From Bdellovibrionales bacterium RIFOXYC1_FULL_37_79 (GTDB taxonomy: Bacteria > Bdellovibrionota > Bacteriovoracia > Bacteriovoracales > Bacteriovoracaceae), in assembly GCA_001770015.1 (NCBI GenBank), contig MEQB01000021.1, forward strand, positions 1 through 35,063: a stretch of DNA of 35,063 nucleotides, in the 5' to 3' direction. A program made the position numbers and the translations under genes. Shown here in pieces: positions 1 through 21,954 of this stretch. Every line of letters begins with the position of its first letter. Position 1 is the first letter of the stretch. The notes beneath the pieces were generated by a model. The model worked only from the letters and a program-made list of their open reading frames with translations, searched no databases and was not told the DNA's origin.

Positions 1-312
1 AACAGTGTCGGAAGCAGCTTGTATCGAGAGTTCCCTGAGCCTGATAATGATGTTTGAAACTTCATTCAATCCACCTTCTGCCGTTTGCACCAGCGAAATA
101 GCATCGCCCGCATTTCTTCTGGCCTGCCTAATTCCTCTAATCTGCGACTTTAAATTCTCACTTATTGCCAATCCCGCTGCATCATCACCCGCTTTTGTTA
201 TACGCTCACCTGAAGACAAAGCTCTCAAGTTTTGATTCATTGATCTGGTCGTATTACTAAGCGATCGTTGTGCCGCTAAGGATGGAATATTTGTATTTAT
301 TCTTAAACCCAT
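1..312 (-). CDS. Flagellin, N-terminal part (cut by window edge)
   Basis: Structural subunit of the flagellar filament. The 104 visible codons begin [18 protein letters not shown] and carry the conserved flagellin N-terminal D0/D1 helices, including [19 protein letters not shown] and the [12 protein letters not shown] segment. It is closely similar to the complete flagellin immediately upstream (533-1381), so the two are tandem paralogues read in the same direction. The start at 312 is supported by an AAAGGAG ribosome site a few bases upstream. The reading frame stays open to base 1, so the C-terminal half lies outside the window. The family assignment is certain; which paralogue this is (major or minor filament subunit) cannot be told. 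Confidence 0.96.
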
Positions 313-1676: not shown

Positions 1677-2729
1677 ATGAACATTTCAGATCATTTTATC
1701 ATTTCGAACCTTAAAAAAAATCCAGAAGTCAGATTGAAAGTCATTCATCTCATTGAGGAATCATTTAATTATACCAATAGAAATCAATTTAAAATTGATT
1801 TCTATCCCCTAATTGCCCCATCCAATGCCATCAATAACCACATTCTCATTGAGAAATCCTCCGGGGATGTTGTGGCTCATATAGGGGTTTTGCCCCGTTT
1901 TTTAAAAAATAAGGACATGCTGATACCGATTATTCTGATGGGAGCCATGGTGGTGCAAAAAAATAAAAGAGGGCAAGGTCTCTTTCGCTTATTTCTGGAA
2001 AGTATCATCAAAAGCTATGAGCCAAACTGCGCCCTGATGCTTCTTTGGAGCAATCTAACCGGTCTCTACAATAAGTTTAATTTTTATGAAGCAGGCATTA
2101 TTTATCAAACCGGAAACAATGATTTTGATCACCAACTGCTTAGTAAAATTTATGACCGGACATCTTTTTCAAAATTGAATGATGCTCAATTTAACTCCAT
2201 TAAAAAACTTTATGATCAAATGAGTGATCATGACCTTTCCCTCATACATAGATCTGACAACGATTGGGAAAGTATAAAAAAAATCACCAGCACCGACCTA
2301 TACTTACTCACGGAAGACGATATTATCAACGGGTACTTTTGTGTCCATAAAGGCCACGATCTAGAAAATATCATTCATGAAATTGTTTTTATCAGCGAAA
2401 ACAAGGAGAGTTTGATTGAGACACTTCGAAGCTATAAGCTCTGGCTGACCCCCAATTTATCCAAACCCTCCAAAGAAGCGACTCCTTTTTACACCGCATT
2501 TTTTCGACCCGGAAATCAAAACAGATTTAATGATTTTTTAAACAATTGGTCCAACCATGAAATTGAAGTTGTTCAGATCATGGATAACTTGATTTCCTAC
2601 AAACATTTAAATGAGCCACTCATGGATACCACCGATTTATTTTTAAAAAAAATTTTTGGACCTGATCCTTTTTTCAAAGGCTATCCATACGGTCCTTTGA
2701 TTTATATTTCGGGACTCGATAGTATTTAG
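1677..2729 (+). CDS. GNAT-like N-acetyltransferase
   Basis: A 350-residue cytosolic protein. The N-terminal half looks like a GCN5-related acetyltransferase: a strand with GDVVAHIGVLPRF, then MGAMVVQKNKRGQGLFRLFL at about residues 88-107. In that stretch RGQG (98-101) is the acetyl-CoA-binding Q/RxxGxG/A motif, slightly shortened. The C-terminal 200 residues are not recognised and could hold a second degenerate GNAT fold. The substrate cannot be told. No good ribosome site precedes the ATG. The last 54 bases are duplicated exactly at 6059-6112, although this copy of the gene is itself complete. Confidence 0.7.
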   Translation: MNISDHFIISNLKKNPEVRLKVIHLIEESFNYTNRNQFKIDFYPLIAPSNAINNHILIEKSSGDVVAHIGVLPRFLKNKDMLIPIILMGAMVVQKNKRGQGLFRLFLESIIKSYEPNCALMLLWSNLTGLYNKFNFYEAGIIYQTGNNDFDHQLLSKIYDRTSFSKLNDAQFNSIKKLYDQMSDHDLSLIHRSDNDWESIKKITSTDLYLLTEDDIINGYFCVHKGHDLENIIHEIVFISENKESLIETLRSYKLWLTPNLSKPSKEATPFYTAFFRPGNQNRFNDFLNNWSNHEIEVVQIMDNLISYKHLNEPLMDTTDLFLKKIFGPDPFFKGYPYGPLIYISGLDSI

Positions 2730-2746
2730 AACATCGGATCACCACC
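2676..2746. repeat. 71-bp direct repeat, left copy
   Basis: Identical base for base to 6059-6129. It spans the last 54 bases of the GNAT gene, including its TAG, plus 17 bases downstream. Flanking bases diverge at once on both sides. The two copies bound a 3.3-kb segment carrying a single gene. Confidence 0.97.
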
Positions 2747-2784
2747 AATTCTACTCTAATCAAAAAAGTTTGGCATTCCCGACA

Positions 2785-2800
2785 TGGTATTACTTTTGCA
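2785..2800 (+). promoter_or_regulatory. Sigma-54-like promoter
   Basis: TGGTATTACTTTTGCA has the GG and GC dinucleotides separated by exactly 10 bases and fits the sigma-54 consensus TGGYAYRN4TTGCW except at the R position. It would start transcription near 2812, about 95 bases before the glycine-rich protein start. No activator-binding site was identified. Confidence 0.4.
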
Positions 2801-2906
2801 GCTCTTAATCTACATAACACCACTAACTAGATTTTACACGGATTTGGTCGAAATGAATTGAAGTAATTCCTTGCACATGTCAAAAATTTCGACAAAAGGA
2901 AATCAA

Positions 2907-5900
2907 ATGAAAAAAAGTTTTTTAATAACTACCATAATCTCTATCCTACTCATTTACAACTGCCATAGTTATACCATTGATGTCTCGGGTAATGATGGCA
3001 ATCATGGAAGTCACGGTGACAGTTATAACACCAGCTCAAGAAGCCGCTGGGGAACTTTCAGTGATAATGGAAATAACGGAAAACATGGTGGAAATGCCGG
3101 TTATGCTACTGAAGGAGAAAATGCCGGAAATATCTATGCCAATATTGAAAGTATAAACGAAAAACAATACCGACTTTGGGGTACCAAAGTATTTCCAAAC
3201 AAAAAAAAGGAATCATTTGATATTATCTTGGAAAAAAACTCTCCAGTAAAAATTAAACTTCTCGCTAATGGTGGTCGAGGTGGAGATGGAGGAAATGGTG
3301 GAGATGGAGAGGGTGGACAAGATGGCGCTGATGGTTCCGACGCTAATGAGTTTAGCTCAGGTGACAACGGCGGAGATGGCGGAGATGGCGGAAATGGCGG
3401 AAATGCCACTCCGGGAAAAGATGGAGGAGATGCTGGTATAATTGAAATTAATATTAATGAAAGAGATGCTCACCTATTAATGAATATCGACTACGAAAAT
3501 AAACCAGGAAACGGTGGCAATAAAAGTCGCAATGGTAGCGGTGGAGACGGCGGGAAACGGGGAGATGGGGGAAATAGTTATTCATGGACAACAGAGAGTT
3601 GCTATGGTTCTGGCGAAGAAAAAGTATGTAACAGATCCTCTCACTATAATTCAGGAGGATCTGACGGAAGATCTGGCAGCTCTGGGAGTGACGGGACCGG
3701 AGATACTTCTGCCGGTAGCTTTGGACGGGAGGGAAACTTTTCGATTTTGGCAACAACTGAAAGTGGAATTAAAACATATAACGAAAAATATGATTTAAAA
3801 GTTCAAGATTATTATTTAGAAACAGACGATAGTGATGGAATTATCGAACCTGGAGAAAAAGTTTATTTAAAAAACCTTAAAATTAAAAACCCAACATCCA
3901 TGCCTTCACCAAAAGAAAAAAACCTTGATATTACCTTACAAAACACATGGTATTTAACCAGAAACACTGAAAAAGTCATTAGCCATAACTCAATAAGTGC
4001 ATGGAACAGTGATATTATCCAAACACCTATTGAATTTACCATTCAAAATAGTGCCAGAGATACAACCAATGAAAATCTCCGATTTGAGGGAAAAATTCAT
4101 TTGGATAATAAATTGGAAGAAGTGGAAAAAGGCTTTTCTGGGTTTCATGGATATGACACATTCATCATTCAAAACCCCATTCAAATAACTCCTTTATTTA
4201 AAAGCAAATCCCTTCTCCCCGGAGAAATCATGAATGTGGCATGGGAAATTAAAAATATTTCAAAAAAAAGTTACGGAAAAGATGGTGAAATTAACCGCGC
4301 TATAGAGCTTGGAATTGAATTAATAGAGGGAGATATCAAACATTCTCAAGTAATATTTAAAGACGAAAAAGATAATATTCAAAACATTACAAGTGTATAT
4401 ACTAAAGCAGTAAAAAAACTTCGACCTGGCGAAAAAGTGATTATCCGAGGCACTTTACAAGTTACTTCAGATTCAACTCCTTACAGCGGAGCTAATATCA
4501 GATCACAGTTGCAACTTGGAAAGCTCAATCAACGCAATGAAACGATGGATATTAAAAATGATAAATTTATTATTCGTGTAGCCACCGATTATAATCCTGA
4601 AAATCACGGAGATTTACTTTTAGTTGTAAATCACAACACTACCAAAGAAATAGTACAATCCTGGCAAAAACTTGGAAAAAAGCTTGGAATGAATATTGAT
4701 ATTTGGGATATTAGCAACAAAGGTTTTTTAAAGCTCAGCCAAGATGTTAAAAAAAATACTAAACTTGCTCAAAATATTAAATTAAAAACTGTAATCATAT
4801 TGAATGACGAGGATATTCTGGACGGGAAGAAAGAAAAAATGATAAATCGCTATAATTTTGACAAAGTTGAATTTATTAATGCCGCATTAGAATATGGTAT
4901 CAACCTTTATCTTTTAAACGAAAATAACCAACCATTAATCATTACAAGTAAAAATACAAAGCAAAACGATAAAAAATCTTTTGATAGCATAGGTGATTTT
5001 AAAAATTTCCTAGAAGAGATGGAAAAACAACAAGAAAACAGTGGTCTTAGAGGAATAAATTATACTAATTGCAACTGTCAAATTAACATAACTGAAGTTC
5101 ATTTCTTTGATTCGGATTATTATGCCCTTGAAAATGCTTTGACAGAATTACAAGAATATTTAGATAAGAAATTTCCTGAACAACAATATCAAATTTCATT
5201 AAGCAGAAACCACAACAGCCAAAATTTAAAGCTTGGCTTTAAAAAAACACTCCATGGCACAATCATTGTTAAAAGAGATACGGATATTAGTGATCCTTTA
5301 ATAACCCAAAACTATAAAAATCTTAAAGAAAAAGAAACAGGTGTAATCACACCCGAAAACATTTTTGGCTTATTATTAAGTCTTCCATTTGATCAAAAAA
5401 TCTCCATGCTAGATAAATTGCTTTTTTATGGAAAATTGACTGAACATGAAACAATTCGTGAACTTATTCGAGCTATACAAGTTGATCTTGCTACAGAGCA
5501 AGCTGCCTTAAGAAAAAATAGAATTTCTCCCACACACACCCCTAAAGGAATGGGGAGACGCCTACGAAAACTACACTTTTTGTCACAATATAAATTTAAA
5601 AATGCAATCTCTGTAACCAGTGATAAAGGAAAATATATAGCAGAACTGGTTGCTGGCCACATGGCCATAGTAGAAGCCGGTCTTAAATGGACAGATAATT
5701 ATTTACCATTTTGGCCAACTTCGGATAATCTTTCCGATGCTGCATCAAAAGAACTAATGAATAAATTTATTGATAATGTCTTTAAAGGAAAAAAAGTTAT
5801 CGATGACAATGGAGAATTACATAAGCAATCAATATTTAAAAATTGGCAAGCCGACTCGGTTTTTAATAATTTAGTTGAAGATAAAATATCTATTTACAAG

Positions 5901-6014
5901 GAAGCGATCGAAACTTTGAAAGCTGAGCATAATAAAACTGAACGAAATGCTGACGTTTACAAATTTAGAAATATTTTTCTTAAAGAACAAAAAGCATACT
6001 TCGAGCAACACTAG
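2907..6014 (+). CDS. Large secreted glycine-rich repeat protein
   Basis: A protein of 1035 residues from the ATG at 2907, chosen because AAAAGGA lies 6 bases upstream and the frame then opens with a signal peptide (MKKSFLITTIISILLIYNCHS). An in-frame ATG 36 bases earlier lacks this support. After the signal come about 270 residues rich in GGDGG, GGNGG and DGADGS repeats, interrupted by a non-repetitive block with a Cys pair. Next are probable beta-sandwich modules (DGIIEPGEKVYLKNLKIKNP and LLPGEIMNVAWEIKN resemble CARDB/Ig-like strands). A mixed alpha/beta region follows (GDLLLVVNHNTTKEIV), then a charged helical C-terminus. There is no C-terminal anchor. It is likely periplasmic or extracellular; adhesion or matrix formation is a guess. 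It lies alone between direct repeats. Confidence 0.8.
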   Translation: MKKSFLITTIISILLIYNCHSYTIDVSGNDGNHGSHGDSYNTSSRSRWGTFSDNGNNGKHGGNAGYATEGENAGNIYANIESINEKQYRLWGTKVFPNKKKESFDIILEKNSPVKIKLLANGGRGGDGGNGGDGEGGQDGADGSDANEFSSGDNGGDGGDGGNGGNATPGKDGGDAGIIEININERDAHLLMNIDYENKPGNGGNKSRNGSGGDGGKRGDGGNSYSWTTESCYGSGEEKVCNRSSHYNSGGSDGRSGSSGSDGTGDTSAGSFGREGNFSILATTESGIKTYNEKYDLKVQDYYLETDDSDGIIEPGEKVYLKNLKIKNPTSMPSPKEKNLDITLQNTWYLTRNTEKVISHNSISAWNSDIIQTPIEFTIQNSARDTTNENLRFEGKIHLDNKLEEVEKGFSGFHGYDTFIIQNPIQITPLFKSKSLLPGEIMNVAWEIKNISKKSYGKDGEINRAIELGIELIEGDIKHSQVIFKDEKDNIQNITSVYTKAVKKLRPGEKVIIRGTLQVTSDSTPYSGANIRSQLQLGKLNQRNETMDIKNDKFIIRVATDYNPENHGDLLLVVNHNTTKEIVQSWQKLGKKLGMNIDIWDISNKGFLKLSQDVKKNTKLAQNIKLKTVIILNDEDILDGKKEKMINRYNFDKVEFINAALEYGINLYLLNENNQPLIITSKNTKQNDKKSFDSIGDFKNFLEEMEKQQENSGLRGINYTNCNCQINITEVHFFDSDYYALENALTELQEYLDKKFPEQQYQISLSRNHNSQNLKLGFKKTLHGTIIVKRDTDISDPLITQNYKNLKEKETGVITPENIFGLLLSLPFDQKISMLDKLLFYGKLTEHETIRELIRAIQVDLATEQAALRKNRISPTHTPKGMGRRLRKLHFLSQYKFKNAISVTSDKGKYIAELVAGHMAIVEAGLKWTDNYLPFWPTSDNLSDAASKELMNKFIDNVFKGKKVIDDNGELHKQSIFKNWQADSVFNNLVEDKISIYKEAIETLKAEHNKTERNADVYKFRNIFLKEQKAYFEQH

Positions 6015-6058
6015 GATTTTAAATCTACTTACTGACATTGTGAACCATCAACAATGGA

Positions 6059-6129
6059 AAAGGCTATCCATACGGTCCTTTGATTTATATTTCGGGACTC
6101 GATAGTATTTAGAACATCGGATCACCACC
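6059..6129. repeat. 71-bp direct repeat, right copy
   Basis: Exact copy of 2676-2746. Here it carries a detached copy of the GNAT gene 3' end. Its last 8 bases supply the final Trp codon and TGA of the App1-like gene on the opposite strand. The perfect identity suggests a recent event or gene conversion. Confidence 0.97.
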
Positions 6130-7003
6130 GACTAACTCCGGAACAAACATCCTCTATCTCTTTAAAATAAACTTCCAGATCACTAATCAAGCTTTTATCC
6201 TGTACCAGTGGCATTTTGTAATCATCAATAAACTCTTGGCATTTTACCCAAGCAGGCAGGACTTTTTGATAGTCATCATACAACATATTCATAACCAAAT
6301 TATTAACCATGATTACATCTTGTTTTGATACCCACCCCTTTGAATAAAAATCCAAGGCCAGATCAACCGCCGTCAGATAGGGAATCTGATTACCAACTTT
6401 TTTTAGACCGATTTCTTTATCGTCTCCCTCTGTGGCATACACCATATGAATGTAAACATGAAATTTAATTTTAGTGTGAGAAAACTTTTTTACAATCTCA
6501 TCATAGACTTCAATATCCTTTTCACCATTATCACCAATCAAAAGAACCTCAATTTTCTTTTTTGGATCTAATTGATTTAATATATGCTCGATTTGTGTAA
6601 TTTTAAAATCCCTGGTTGAAATTTTCAAATTGGGTCTATGATAAAACTCTCCCTTTGGAAATTGAGTGTTTTCAACAAACAAACTGCCAGCATATTTCAC
6701 GACAGAGGGAGCCCCAGACACATAATAGACTTTAATATTTTGAAAGGTAGTTTTATAAATAATGTCATGACATATCGAAAGTCTCTGATCTTTTGAAATA
6801 TTATTACAAACCAGCATTTTATAAAGAACATTAAGACCAACAAAATCATTATTGATAAAAGGACCGCCAGTGAAATGATTCAAAACATGTGTTCGTTTAA
6901 TGGTATCGTCCACGTCCGATATAAGAATGATTTTTTTATCCTCGGCCTGAAGGGTAATCGTTGTAACAATTAGAAACAAAACAACGCCCAGTAACTTTGT
7001 CAT
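6122..7003 (-). CDS. Secreted App1-like phosphatase (DUF2183, HAD fold)
   Basis: A 293-residue exported protein. The signal peptide MTKLLGVVLFLIVTTITLQA probably ends at A20. The mature part begins with ISDVDDTIKRTHVLN; D30 and D32 form the HAD-type DxDxT nucleophile motif. Later come YYVSGAPS (motif II Ser/Thr region) and LLIGDNGEKDIEVY (motif IV acidic pair). This order matches the catalytic domain of yeast App1, a phosphatidate phosphatase, and the bacterial DUF2183 family. Lipid phosphatase activity in the periplasm is inferred; the substrate is unknown. GGGAG precedes the ATG. The stop codon falls inside the right copy of the 71-bp repeat. Confidence 0.85.
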   Translation of the reverse strand: MTKLLGVVLFLIVTTITLQAEDKKIILISDVDDTIKRTHVLNHFTGGPFINNDFVGLNVLYKMLVCNNISKDQRLSICHDIIYKTTFQNIKVYYVSGAPSVVKYAGSLFVENTQFPKGEFYHRPNLKISTRDFKITQIEHILNQLDPKKKIEVLLIGDNGEKDIEVYDEIVKKFSHTKIKFHVYIHMVYATEGDDKEIGLKKVGNQIPYLTAVDLALDFYSKGWVSKQDVIMVNNLVMNMLYDDYQKVLPAWVKCQEFIDDYKMPLVQDKSLISDLEVYFKEIEDVCSGVSRW

Positions 7004-7111
7004 AAATTTACTCCCGATCTTTTTAACTATGGTTGAGATTAACTCAATAGAGCAATTGACGCAATAAGCTGTGGGATTTTTACATTAATCACATCTCCTG
7101 TTCCCTGTTAA

Positions 7112-7234
7112 CTAAATTTTTTCAATTATAATTTTACTACCACATTTGGCGCAACAATTATCATTCAACCCGGCAACATTGGTTTTCAAACCAAAACTTC
7201 CCATCGTATTAAATTTAGAAGCTTTTACTTTCAT
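7112..7234 (-). CDS. Possible 40-residue CxxC mini-protein
   Basis: A short ATG-to-TAG frame beginning MKVKASKFNTMGSFGLKT and ending DNCCAKCGSKIIIEKI. The CCAKCGSK stretch looks like half of a zinc ribbon. It lies in the 288-base gap between the App1-like gene and the AAA ATPase, divergent from the latter. No convincing ribosome site is visible. It is either a real small protein or a chance frame; the protein-like composition and CxxCG motif make it worth listing. Confidence 0.35.
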   Translation of the reverse strand: MKVKASKFNTMGSFGLKTNVAGLNDNCCAKCGSKIIIEKI

Positions 7235-7257
7235 ATTTTTACCAGATCAAGTTAAAT

Positions 7258-7291
7258 TTGACTTTCATTTTATCCATGATAGAATGAAAGT
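7258..7291 (+). promoter_or_regulatory. Sigma-70 promoter overlapped by inverted repeat
   Basis: TTGACT (7258-7263), a 16-base spacer and TAGAAT (7280-7285) each match 5 of 6 consensus bases. Transcription should begin about 7 bases after the -10, at the ATG (7292). A perfect inverted repeat ACTTTCATT (7261-7269) / AATGAAAGT (7283-7291) covers both promoter elements with half-sites 22 bp apart. A third ACTTTCAT lies at 7227-7234. This suits an operator, possibly autoregulatory. Confidence 0.55.
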
Positions 7292-8461
7292 ATGTTTTCA
7301 AGATGGTGTAATCTCAATTTAGAGAAATCTTTTATTCTTCAAGGCCCACGTCGCGCTGGCAAATCAACTTTATTACAAGCCAAATTTCCTGATTATAAAT
7401 ACGTTACCCTCGATGATTTAGATGATTTAGCTTTAGCAAAAAAAGATCCCAAGATGTTTATTGAAAAACTCGGCACTCATTTCATTATAGATGAGGCCCA
7501 AAGAATCCCTGAATTAAGCCTGCCAATCAAAAAGCTGATTGATCAAAACAAACAAAATAAAACCCATGCCATTCTTACTGGTTCAACCGGAATTCGTTTA
7601 AAGGAACAGCTTTATGATACGCTAGCGGGTCGCATTGAATTTTTAAGACTTCCAACCTGTTGTTTCGGTGAAAATTTTGGTCTCCCCACTCATAAAATTG
7701 ACCAACCTTTAGATCATGATTTAGAGGTTCAGGCCAAAAGAGAATTTCAAAGTTTTTTTACTTTCGGGGGATTTCCAGAAGTTTTGAACAACTTACCAGA
7801 AGAGGAAAAGGAAAAAATTTTAAAACTATATAAAAACAGTTACTTTACAAGAGATCTTGCGTCTCTTTTGAATCTCGATAACGTCGAAGGCATTAAGGCC
7901 ATGTTTGGTGCACTCATTAAAGGACTTGGTTCCCGCTATGAAATGAGTTCACTTTCCAAAGAAACAGGACTTTCCATTCCTACCGCAAAAAAATATTTTA
8001 ATTCATTATTATTATCTGGACTATCATTTAAACTTTATGGCTATCATCTAGGTCCTGCAAAAAGATATATCGCAAAATCAAAAAACTATTTTTTAGATCA
8101 AGGAATACTCTTTGCCTTAAGTGACGAATTTTCCAAAGGGCAGGCATTTGAAAACTTTATCGTTTCCGAAATTGAAAAAAGAAGACAACTTGGATTTATT
8201 AATGCCGATGAACTCTATTACTACGAATCAGCTGGCGGCTCAGAGATAGATATAGTGATCGAAGAAAAACAAAGCTTAACTTTAATAGAAATTAAATCCT
8301 CAAAAAAACTCAGCTTAAAAGAACTCAAAAACATCAAGACTTATAATTTAAAAACAAACAAAAAGATAAAAAAAATGGTTTTCTACCTAGGGGATGATTT
8401 CTATTGGGAAGAAAACATTTTAATAATCCCCGCTTGGAATTTTTTCCGAGCATCTTTCTAA
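7292..8461 (+). CDS. AAA ATPase with DUF4143-type C-terminus
   Basis: A 389-residue protein of the widespread AAA_14/DUF4143 family, whose cellular role is unsettled. Walker A is GPRRAGKST (residues 18-26). Walker B is FIIDEAQRIPEL (about 64-75). LTGSTG is sensor-like. The C-terminus carries a PD-(D/E)xK nuclease-like signature: GSEID (E318, D320), then EIKSSKK (E333, K335). The start is forced: a TAG lies in frame four codons upstream, and Walker A leaves no room for a later start. No Shine-Dalgarno is visible and the promoter predicts a leaderless transcript. It is monocistronic and convergent with the UbiB-like gene. Such genes are often mobile, but no transfer marks are visible. Confidence 0.9.
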   Translation: MFSRWCNLNLEKSFILQGPRRAGKSTLLQAKFPDYKYVTLDDLDDLALAKKDPKMFIEKLGTHFIIDEAQRIPELSLPIKKLIDQNKQNKTHAILTGSTGIRLKEQLYDTLAGRIEFLRLPTCCFGENFGLPTHKIDQPLDHDLEVQAKREFQSFFTFGGFPEVLNNLPEEEKEKILKLYKNSYFTRDLASLLNLDNVEGIKAMFGALIKGLGSRYEMSSLSKETGLSIPTAKKYFNSLLLSGLSFKLYGYHLGPAKRYIAKSKNYFLDQGILFALSDEFSKGQAFENFIVSEIEKRRQLGFINADELYYYESAGGSEIDIVIEEKQSLTLIEIKSSKKLSLKELKNIKTYNLKTNKKIKKMVFYLGDDFYWEENILIIPAWNFFRASF

Positions 8462-8487
8462 TTCACTTGTTATAATCAGGAGACTAT

Positions 8488-20422: not shown

Positions 20423-20850
20423 AAAATCCCTCCCGAATAATTAACATTATACATCATTTCAATTTTCAATATTTATATAAATTTCAAGAATCATTTGCTT
20501 GGTTCATATAATTTGGATTTGTATGGCTCAATAATCATCGTACATCAACACCAATATCAGACCTAAAAACCTATCTCTAGGTCTAACTATCTCAGGTGTG
20601 ACTGATCCATAAATGCTATTTTTTTAAAAAAAACTTACGCACATTTTACGCTTGACTTACGCAATATTTACGCATAACCTTTTTATATAGAAATTAATTG
20701 CAGGTCAATTTTTAAAAGACAGGTAGAAAGTTGTGAGTAATTTTGCAGTGATAAAAAAAGGAAAACCTGACTGATTTGCATAAGTTTTAGATGTCGTAGT
20801 TTAGAGAAAATGGTATTTAATTTATAACCCTTTGCCCTATGGAGAAAACA
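20423..20850. other. Long non-coding region upstream of recA
   Basis: About 420 bases without a convincing gene. Contents: AT-rich divergent promoter DNA for the secreted protein; an inverted repeat AGACCTA (20559-20565) / TAGGTCT (20578-20584); the four-copy TTACGC array (20635-20673); and an apparently long recA leader of roughly 160 bases. I saw no riboswitch fold or small ORF with a ribosome site. Confidence 0.6.
20635..20673 (+). promoter_or_regulatory. Four TTACGC repeats, 11-bp period, at recA promoter
   Basis: TTACGC begins at 20635, 20646, 20657 and 20668, an exact 11-base period. A candidate -35 TTGACT (20652-20657) falls inside the array; 17 bases further TAACCT (20675-20680) is a weak -10. 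The array would thus cover the recA promoter. It keeps the TTAC half-site of the Bdellovibrio LexA box (TTACN3GTAA) but in direct, not inverted, orientation. A role as an SOS operator is inferred. Confidence 0.55.
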
Positions 20851-21954
20851 ATGAATCAGACAACCGTTATGGATAAAGCAAACAAAGCAAAAGCTCTCGA
20901 TCTGGCCTTAGCCTCAATTGAAAAACAATTTGGCAAAGGTGCCATCATGAAACTCGGTGATAACGAGATACATGAAAAAATTCCGGCTATTTCTACTGGC
21001 TGTTTAGGTCTTGATCTTGCCCTTGGTGTAGGTGGAATTCCCCAAGGTAGAATTATCGAAATCTATGGCCCGGAATCCTCCGGAAAAACCACTCTCACGC
21101 TTCACCTTGCAGCTGAATGCCAAAAGGCTGGTGGCACCGTCGCCTTTGTTGATGCAGAACACGCTCTCGACACTAATTATGCTTCCAAACTTGGAATTGA
21201 TGTTTCTAATTTGCTTATCTCGCAACCAGATAGTGGCGAGCAAGCACTTGAAATCAGCGACATGCTCGTTAGATCTGGTGCTGTAAGTCTTTTAATCATC
21301 GACTCTGTGGCGGCCCTCACTCCTAAGGCTGAATTGGAAGGCGACATGGGAGATTCCCATATGGGATTGCAAGCGAGACTTATGAGTCAGGCTTTGAGAA
21401 AATTAACAGGATCGATTTCCAGATCCAATACCACCGTTGTTTTTATCAACCAGTTAAGAATGAAAATTGGGGTTATGTTTGGCAATCCAGAAACAACCAC
21501 TGGAGGAAACGCTCTTAAATTTTATGCTTCCGTTCGGTTGGACATAAGAAAAGTGTCCTCTATAAAAGACGGAGAAGAATATATCGGCAATCGAACCAAG
21601 GTCAAAGTTGTTAAGAATAAAGTGGCTCCTCCTTTTAAAAGCGTCGAATTCGACATTATGTTTGGAGAAGGAATTTCCCGAGAAGGGGATATTCTTGATA
21701 TCGCCGTAGAAGAAAAGATTGTCGAAAAAGCTGGCGCCTGGTTCTCTTACAACAATATTAAAATTGGACAAGGTAGAGAAAATTCTAAAAATTATTTTAA
21801 AGAAAATCCGGCCATAATGAACGAAATCAGAACGCTGATTCTTGATAAGCACGGACTAGCAGGTAAAAATGAAAAAATAGACCCTATCACCGGAGAGATA
21901 TCTGTCGATGACAATAAAGCTAAAGCTAAAAAACCAAAGACTGATTTACAATAA
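20851..21954 (+). CDS. recA: Recombinase A
   Basis: DNA strand-exchange protein and co-protease for LexA. 367 residues from the ATG at 20851, chosen because GGAG lies 6 bases upstream; an ATG 12 bases earlier overlaps that site. Core motifs are [17 protein letters not shown], Walker [18 protein letters not shown], the Walker B strand [10 protein letters not shown] followed by [20 protein letters not shown] (L1), and [20 protein letters not shown] (L2). The Lys/Asp-rich C-terminal tail is typical. It is followed at once by a terminator and recX. Confidence 0.98.

Follow-up and report, generated by a model that had tools for sequence, protein, structure and literature searches.

At the junction of two convergent genes in Bdellovibrionales bacterium RIFOXYC1_FULL_37_79, a stretch of DNA carrying a single, foreign-looking gene is bounded by a perfect 71-bp direct repeat, which probably marks a non-site-specific insertion that duplicated its target. 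The window, i.e. the whole stretch of DNA analyzed, covers 35,063 nt of contig MEQB01000021.1. The case is of interest mainly because it led to scars across the genome that were left by a known but unexplained mode of insertion. The features of the locus are as follows.

1677 to 2729, plus strand: left flank, GNAT-like acetyltransferase of 350 aa (Acetyltransf_9 at 24.1 bits, just below the 25-bit cut-off)
2676 to 2746, plus strand: target copy 1, collinear with the GNAT gene; collinearity with the sister species extends to 2728
2747 to 6058, no strand assigned: inserted DNA of 3312 bp with a single-gene cargo
2907 to 6014, plus strand: cargo gene of 1035 aa, with a signal-like N-terminal stretch, a glycine-rich region and a DUF7932 domain
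6059 to 6129, plus strand: target copy 2, 100% identical to copy 1, carrying the stop codon of the APP1-like gene (6122-6124)
6122 to 7003, minus strand: right flank, phosphatidate phosphatase APP1-like protein of 293 aa, with its stop codon within copy 2
7292 to 8461, plus strand: AAA_14-DUF4143 ATPase (context), PADLOC candidate defense family PDC-S01

Self-comparison of the window aligned positions 2676-2746 with 6059-6129 over 71 nt without a single mismatch, at an offset of 3383 nt, exactly where a preliminary description of this DNA had placed a perfect direct repeat. No other exact direct repeat of 18 nt or longer is dispersed within the window, and a search for further copies across the whole 4.36-Mb assembly found the 71-bp sequence at these two places and at no third one. 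In random sequence of equal size, the expectation for a 71-bp repeat is ~1e-32. The repeat comprises the last 54 nt of the GNAT ORF and 17 nt past it, and copy 2 lies just beyond the glycine-rich gene, whose ORF ends 44 nt before it; both points agree with the preliminary description. Separately, two neighboring flagellin-like genes at the start of the window (5-216 and 1074-1285) are paralogues with 71% identical DNA.

Further analysis of the 71 bp revealed that they hold the 3' ends of both convergent genes, as the APP1-like stop codon, read on the minus strand, falls within copy 2. The GNAT gene runs to its end in copy 1, and the APP1-like gene takes its stop and last codons from copy 2, the C terminus of its product having a normal length compared to its homologues. 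The two flanking genes are thus intact, as had been claimed, and removal of the insert together with one copy indeed leaves a compact convergent junction; this inferred empty site has 9 bp between the two stop codons. Because the 71 bp carry both gene ends and each copy completes one gene, the repeat is best explained as a target that spanned the convergent junction and was duplicated upon insertion. Both neighbors survive because the duplicated stretch includes their ends, and this survival may be the reason that such inserts persist. No hairpin or other special structure was found in the 71 bp (z = +0.79). Judged from its sequence, the repeat could plausibly serve for excision of the insert.

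The insert has a G+C content of 34.2%, compared to 35.3% in its flanks. Its one real gene likely starts at the ATG at 2907, which follows AAAGGA; the ORF list gives a TTG further upstream at 2871. The encoded protein looks secreted, as far as the signal-like N-terminal stretch can tell. A domain scan of the insert detected no recombinase, in line with the preliminary description; on the whole contig of the window there was no match to the tyrosine recombinase domain (PF00589), and no serine recombinase or transposase was found among the 15 window proteins scanned. Relatives of the cargo protein, with ~23-29% identity, occur in three other genomes of the phylum (G037, G014 and G004) in different contexts, where no direct repeats of at least 18 nt flank them. 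The cargo is therefore not itself a repeat-bounded element. No relatives were found in plasmids, phages or viral contigs, and the glycine-rich gene was accordingly rejected as a mobile element in its own right.

The sole same-genus relative among the genomes compared is Bdellovibrionales bacterium RIFOXYA1_FULL_36_14 (G001), referred to here as the sister species. Its GNAT orthologue shares 85% protein identity, and its DNA is collinear with the window through the GNAT stop, after which different genes follow until window position 8482. The collinearity of copy 1 with the sister GNAT gene identifies the 71-bp target as host DNA. The duplication at this locus is recent, for the two copies match each other at 100%, whereas the duplicated stretch shares 87% identity with the sister sequence over 53 bp. 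The comparison proposed in the preliminary description, a search for an empty site in a relative, was borne out in part: the insert is absent from the sister, but the junction itself differs, with the APP1-like neighbor missing as well. Since the sister carries other genes to the right of GNAT, the insertion at the window locus is argued from its anatomy and by analogy with other loci. The region between GNAT and an ABC1-kinase-like gene (window 2730-8481), occupied by unrelated genes in the sister, represents a variable site between conserved blocks.

The analogous loci come from a survey of 2.09 Mb (48%) of the genome (G000), in which each contig was compared with itself and two-copy pairs of at least 30 bp and at least 88% identity, 0.4-12 kb apart, were kept after removal of multi-copy repeats and paralogous coding repeats. 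In total, 22 isolated two-copy, non-paralogous repeats were found, all of them direct and none inverted, an outcome with a chance probability of 0.5^22 = 2.4e-7. The control survey yielded no pair in either 0.4 Mb of a near-complete genome of the same family (G003) or 0.3 Mb of E. coli K-12 (exact p = 0.002 against both controls jointly, and 0.02 against G003 alone). Across the sampled genome the repeats range from 34 to 608 bp, and most of those other than the window's are 88-99% identical instead of exact. They enclose inserts of 1-10 kb with one to several genes, at a density of ~10 repeat-bounded insertions per Mb. Many of the 22 share the anatomy seen in the window, namely a short host stretch duplicated around one or more genes, often a gene 3' end (by reading of the translations, those of a DnaJ-like gene, hypE, rlmH and an 852-aa gene), sometimes a 5' end; intergenic DNA is also found among the duplicated targets. 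The cargos elsewhere in the genome include HipA (HipBA), Fic, HEPN and AAA_14-DUF4143 proteins, an M14 peptidase, an M48-like protein and secreted-looking proteins of unknown function, and no restriction-modification gene scored among the cargos scanned. No common motif was detected at the insert ends of 16 events (the best 8-mer was seen 3 times, against a null mean of 3.1), nor an attachment core common to the events, the repeats being two-copy and mutually unrelated. Altogether, about 20 similar scars in half of the genome suggest that the lineage acquires genes in this way habitually and that the window locus is no isolated event.

A few of the 22 pairs may, and probably do, have another origin. 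The repeat at C11:258413/265998 corresponds to a tRNA-like 3' end with an integrase-like ORF next to it (258614-259180), the C36:137043 pair is part of an array of tandem paralogues, and at C1:4366 and C16:7766 the second copy is located within an ORF. The tRNA-like 3'-end repeats at C11:258413, 265998 and 267526, near the integrase-like ORF, look like a classical att array. Copying of the cargos from elsewhere in the genome was considered and rejected, as the inserts gave only short partial matches to the sampled 2.09 Mb, with the exception of the insert at C22:10797, which matches elsewhere over 0.76 kb at 72%.

For three of these loci both flanks were found in the sister species, where each site is empty and the target is present once.

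C1:149633/151693: target of 65 bp; copies 98.5% identical to each other and 89% to the sister
C42:103923/104933: target of 114 bp; copies 93.9% identical to each other and 81-83% to the sister
C32:47826/49365: target of 157 bp; copies 94.9% identical to each other and 85-88% to the sister; sole cargo an AAA_14-DUF4143 gene

At each locus the copies are nearer to each other than to the sister copy, which indicates that the three duplications postdate the species split. Loss in the sister by recombination between old repeats is accordingly disfavored, and insertion in the lineage of the window would be the simpler reading, although gene conversion between the copies could produce the same pattern of identity. 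A second search of flanks in the sister for more empty sites returned single flanks only. These clean empty sites, together with the sister GNAT gene that lacks the insert, uphold the original reading of the window locus as a single-gene insertion with target duplication.

As to how the insertion arose, we propose that a fragment of ~3.3 kb with one gene would have been captured at the junction of the two convergent genes, leaving 71 bp of the target on both sides. The chromosome would have been opened by two nicks or a staggered break, on opposite strands and tens to hundreds of bases apart; the overhangs would then have been copied, and a foreign linear fragment joined between them. The chances that the DNA came in by such a staggered-break capture, with its putative break, fill-in and joining steps, appear to be about even. 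Alternatively, a template switch might have taken replication from the target onto foreign DNA and then back into the target, upstream of where it had departed, a route that is possible but, in our judgment, rather unlikely. Either route would produce the order target-insert-target with a variable repeat length and no sequence specificity. Joining that depends on Ku is unlikely, because no match to the Ku gene (PF02735) was found in this genome or in the sister, in assemblies that are 95.8% and ~85% complete, respectively; 3 of the 39 genomes searched were positive. Bacterial non-homologous end joining was therefore set aside, the textbook end-joining route being probably absent.

Target-duplicating insertion without site specificity was weighed against three other explanations. 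In the first, which the preliminary description had put forward as att duplication by site-specific integration, the locus is an island without an integrase of its own, the 71 bp representing attL and attR at the 3' end of a gene, with a tyrosine recombinase from another part of the genome acting in trans. Site-specific recombination expects a common core, fixed short repeats and an integrase. A gene 3' end that is repeated in such a way that the gene stays whole is indeed classic att anatomy, and the genome offers 13 tyrosine-recombinase matches elsewhere, as well as the tRNA-like 3'-end repeat with its integrase-like ORF on C11. However, the insert holds no recombinase and the contig of the window no tyrosine-recombinase match, the analogous repeats differ in sequence and length without a common core or end motif, and their targets include gene 5' ends and intergenic DNA besides 3' ends. 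The variable lengths, the lack of an end motif and the lack of a recombinase in the insert make att-type integration unlikely, and we regard this origin of the window locus as improbable.

The second explanation is homologous integration, in which a donor, circular or linear, that already carried the GNAT 3' end entered by a single crossover within the 71 bp and gave a Campbell-type duplication. The donor must then have held exactly the 71 bp of this organism, with the APP1 stop and the bases between the genes, and each of the three sister-verified cases would need a donor already holding its own target. Moreover, 71 bp is short for a RecA crossover. Despite yielding the same anatomy, and despite a RecA gene encoded in the window itself (20839-21954), this route is very improbable. 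The third explanation, an assembly artifact or strain mixture in which a 71-bp overlap was placed twice around the contig of another population member, draws on the fragmentation of the assembly into 74 contigs; it is scarcely credible, given that the repeat sits in a 101-kb contig, that most other repeats are inexact and of varied length, and that for three loci the corresponding empty sites are present in a species whose genome was assembled separately. A DNA transposon, IS or MITE was rejected, as transposition expects terminal inverted repeats and a short target duplication of fixed length, whereas no inverted arms were seen at 2747/6058 and the duplication measures 71 bp here and 34-608 bp elsewhere.

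The AAA_14-DUF4143 family, listed in PADLOC as the candidate phage defense family PDC-S01, counts over 30 genes in this genome and forms the sole cargo of two repeat-bounded insertions (C32:48027-49250 and C43:18630-19766). Long direct repeats closely flank 3 of 20 AAA_14-DUF4143 genes, compared to 8 of 397 other ORFs (p = 0.012). This enrichment is modest and most copies lack repeats, so these genes were rejected as the driver of the insertions and look like frequent passengers more than a cause. DUF4143 is related to PD-(D/E)XK nucleases. It is conceivable, though we hold it doubtful, that the lineage actively captures foreign, possibly prey, DNA in a sequence-independent manner with long target duplications, at ~10 scars per Mb and without Ku, and that the AAA_14-DUF4143 genes could be selfish passengers or could even be what makes the staggered cuts.

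The mode called insertion with long target duplication (Nobusato et al. 2000, Gene 259:99; Furuta et al. 2010) came to light when two Helicobacter pylori genomes were compared (PMC1643837), and it is known from other prokaryotes as well. It concerns mainly restriction-modification genes, with duplications of ~100 bp and of variable length, and is poorly explained (PMC1643837, PMC3031569, PMC3874152). In the literature searched, the phrase is mostly tied to Helicobacter or to restriction-modification. The present loci resemble those cases in having a non-transposon unit, long direct target duplications of variable length (a two-copy host target, 34-608 bp between events) and, at the three sister-verified loci, recognition by the empty site in a relative. 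They differ in their cargo, which is a DUF7932 glycine-rich, secreted-looking protein in the window and varied elsewhere instead of restriction-modification genes, in their density of ~10 per Mb in one genome, and in their Bdellovibrio-like lineage. No report of long target duplication in Bdellovibrio-like bacteria was found in the literature searched, subscription papers lying outside it. The suggestion of an unrecognized route of acquisition thus stands only in part: the mode had already been described, but the variety of cargos, the density of the insertions and their occurrence in a lineage in which no Ku was detected are new.

Similar structures are found in plants. Patch-mediated tandem duplication during double-strand-break repair has been described in plants, with natural insertions in rice (Vaughn & Bennetzen 2014, cited in PMC7407515), and transposed genes of Arabidopsis carry flanking direct repeats of host sequence (PMC2869330). 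Both share with our loci direct repeats of host sequence on both sides, a variable length and no transposase, and the staggered-break capture proposed above resembles the patch-mediated model for the rice insertions; the plant cases, however, use eukaryotic repair machinery, whereas Ku seems to be missing from this bacterium. Integrase-driven islands at gene ends (tRNA genes, or dusA with a fixed 21-bp attachment sequence; PMC4482086) are alike in their direct repeats at a gene end and in keeping the target gene functional, but they come with an integrase of their own and a short attachment sequence that does not vary, neither of which was seen here.

Single-gene acquisitions without a visible vehicle abound in bacterial genomes. 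The scars, three of them verified in the sister, tie such acquisitions to one process that reaches beyond restriction-modification genes and Helicobacter. By protecting the genes on both sides, the duplication could allow genes to be inserted into compact genomes almost without damage. The movement of genes without a recombinase thereby becomes testable through repeat length, insert ends and repair genes in one lineage.

Two further kinds of repeat were observed in the survey. REP-like short multi-copy repeats with palindromic parts (of the GGTACGGC... / CCCCAAA... type) are scattered between genes, at C59:30782, 32098 and 35526, at C11:228062, 235172 and 236794, and at C1:213856 and 217300. 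A dispersed element of ~120 bp, possibly a MITE, occurs at C16:10827-10949, C32:45393-45515 and C36:11637-11716 in copies that are 78-89% alike, and sits inside two of the repeat-bounded inserts.
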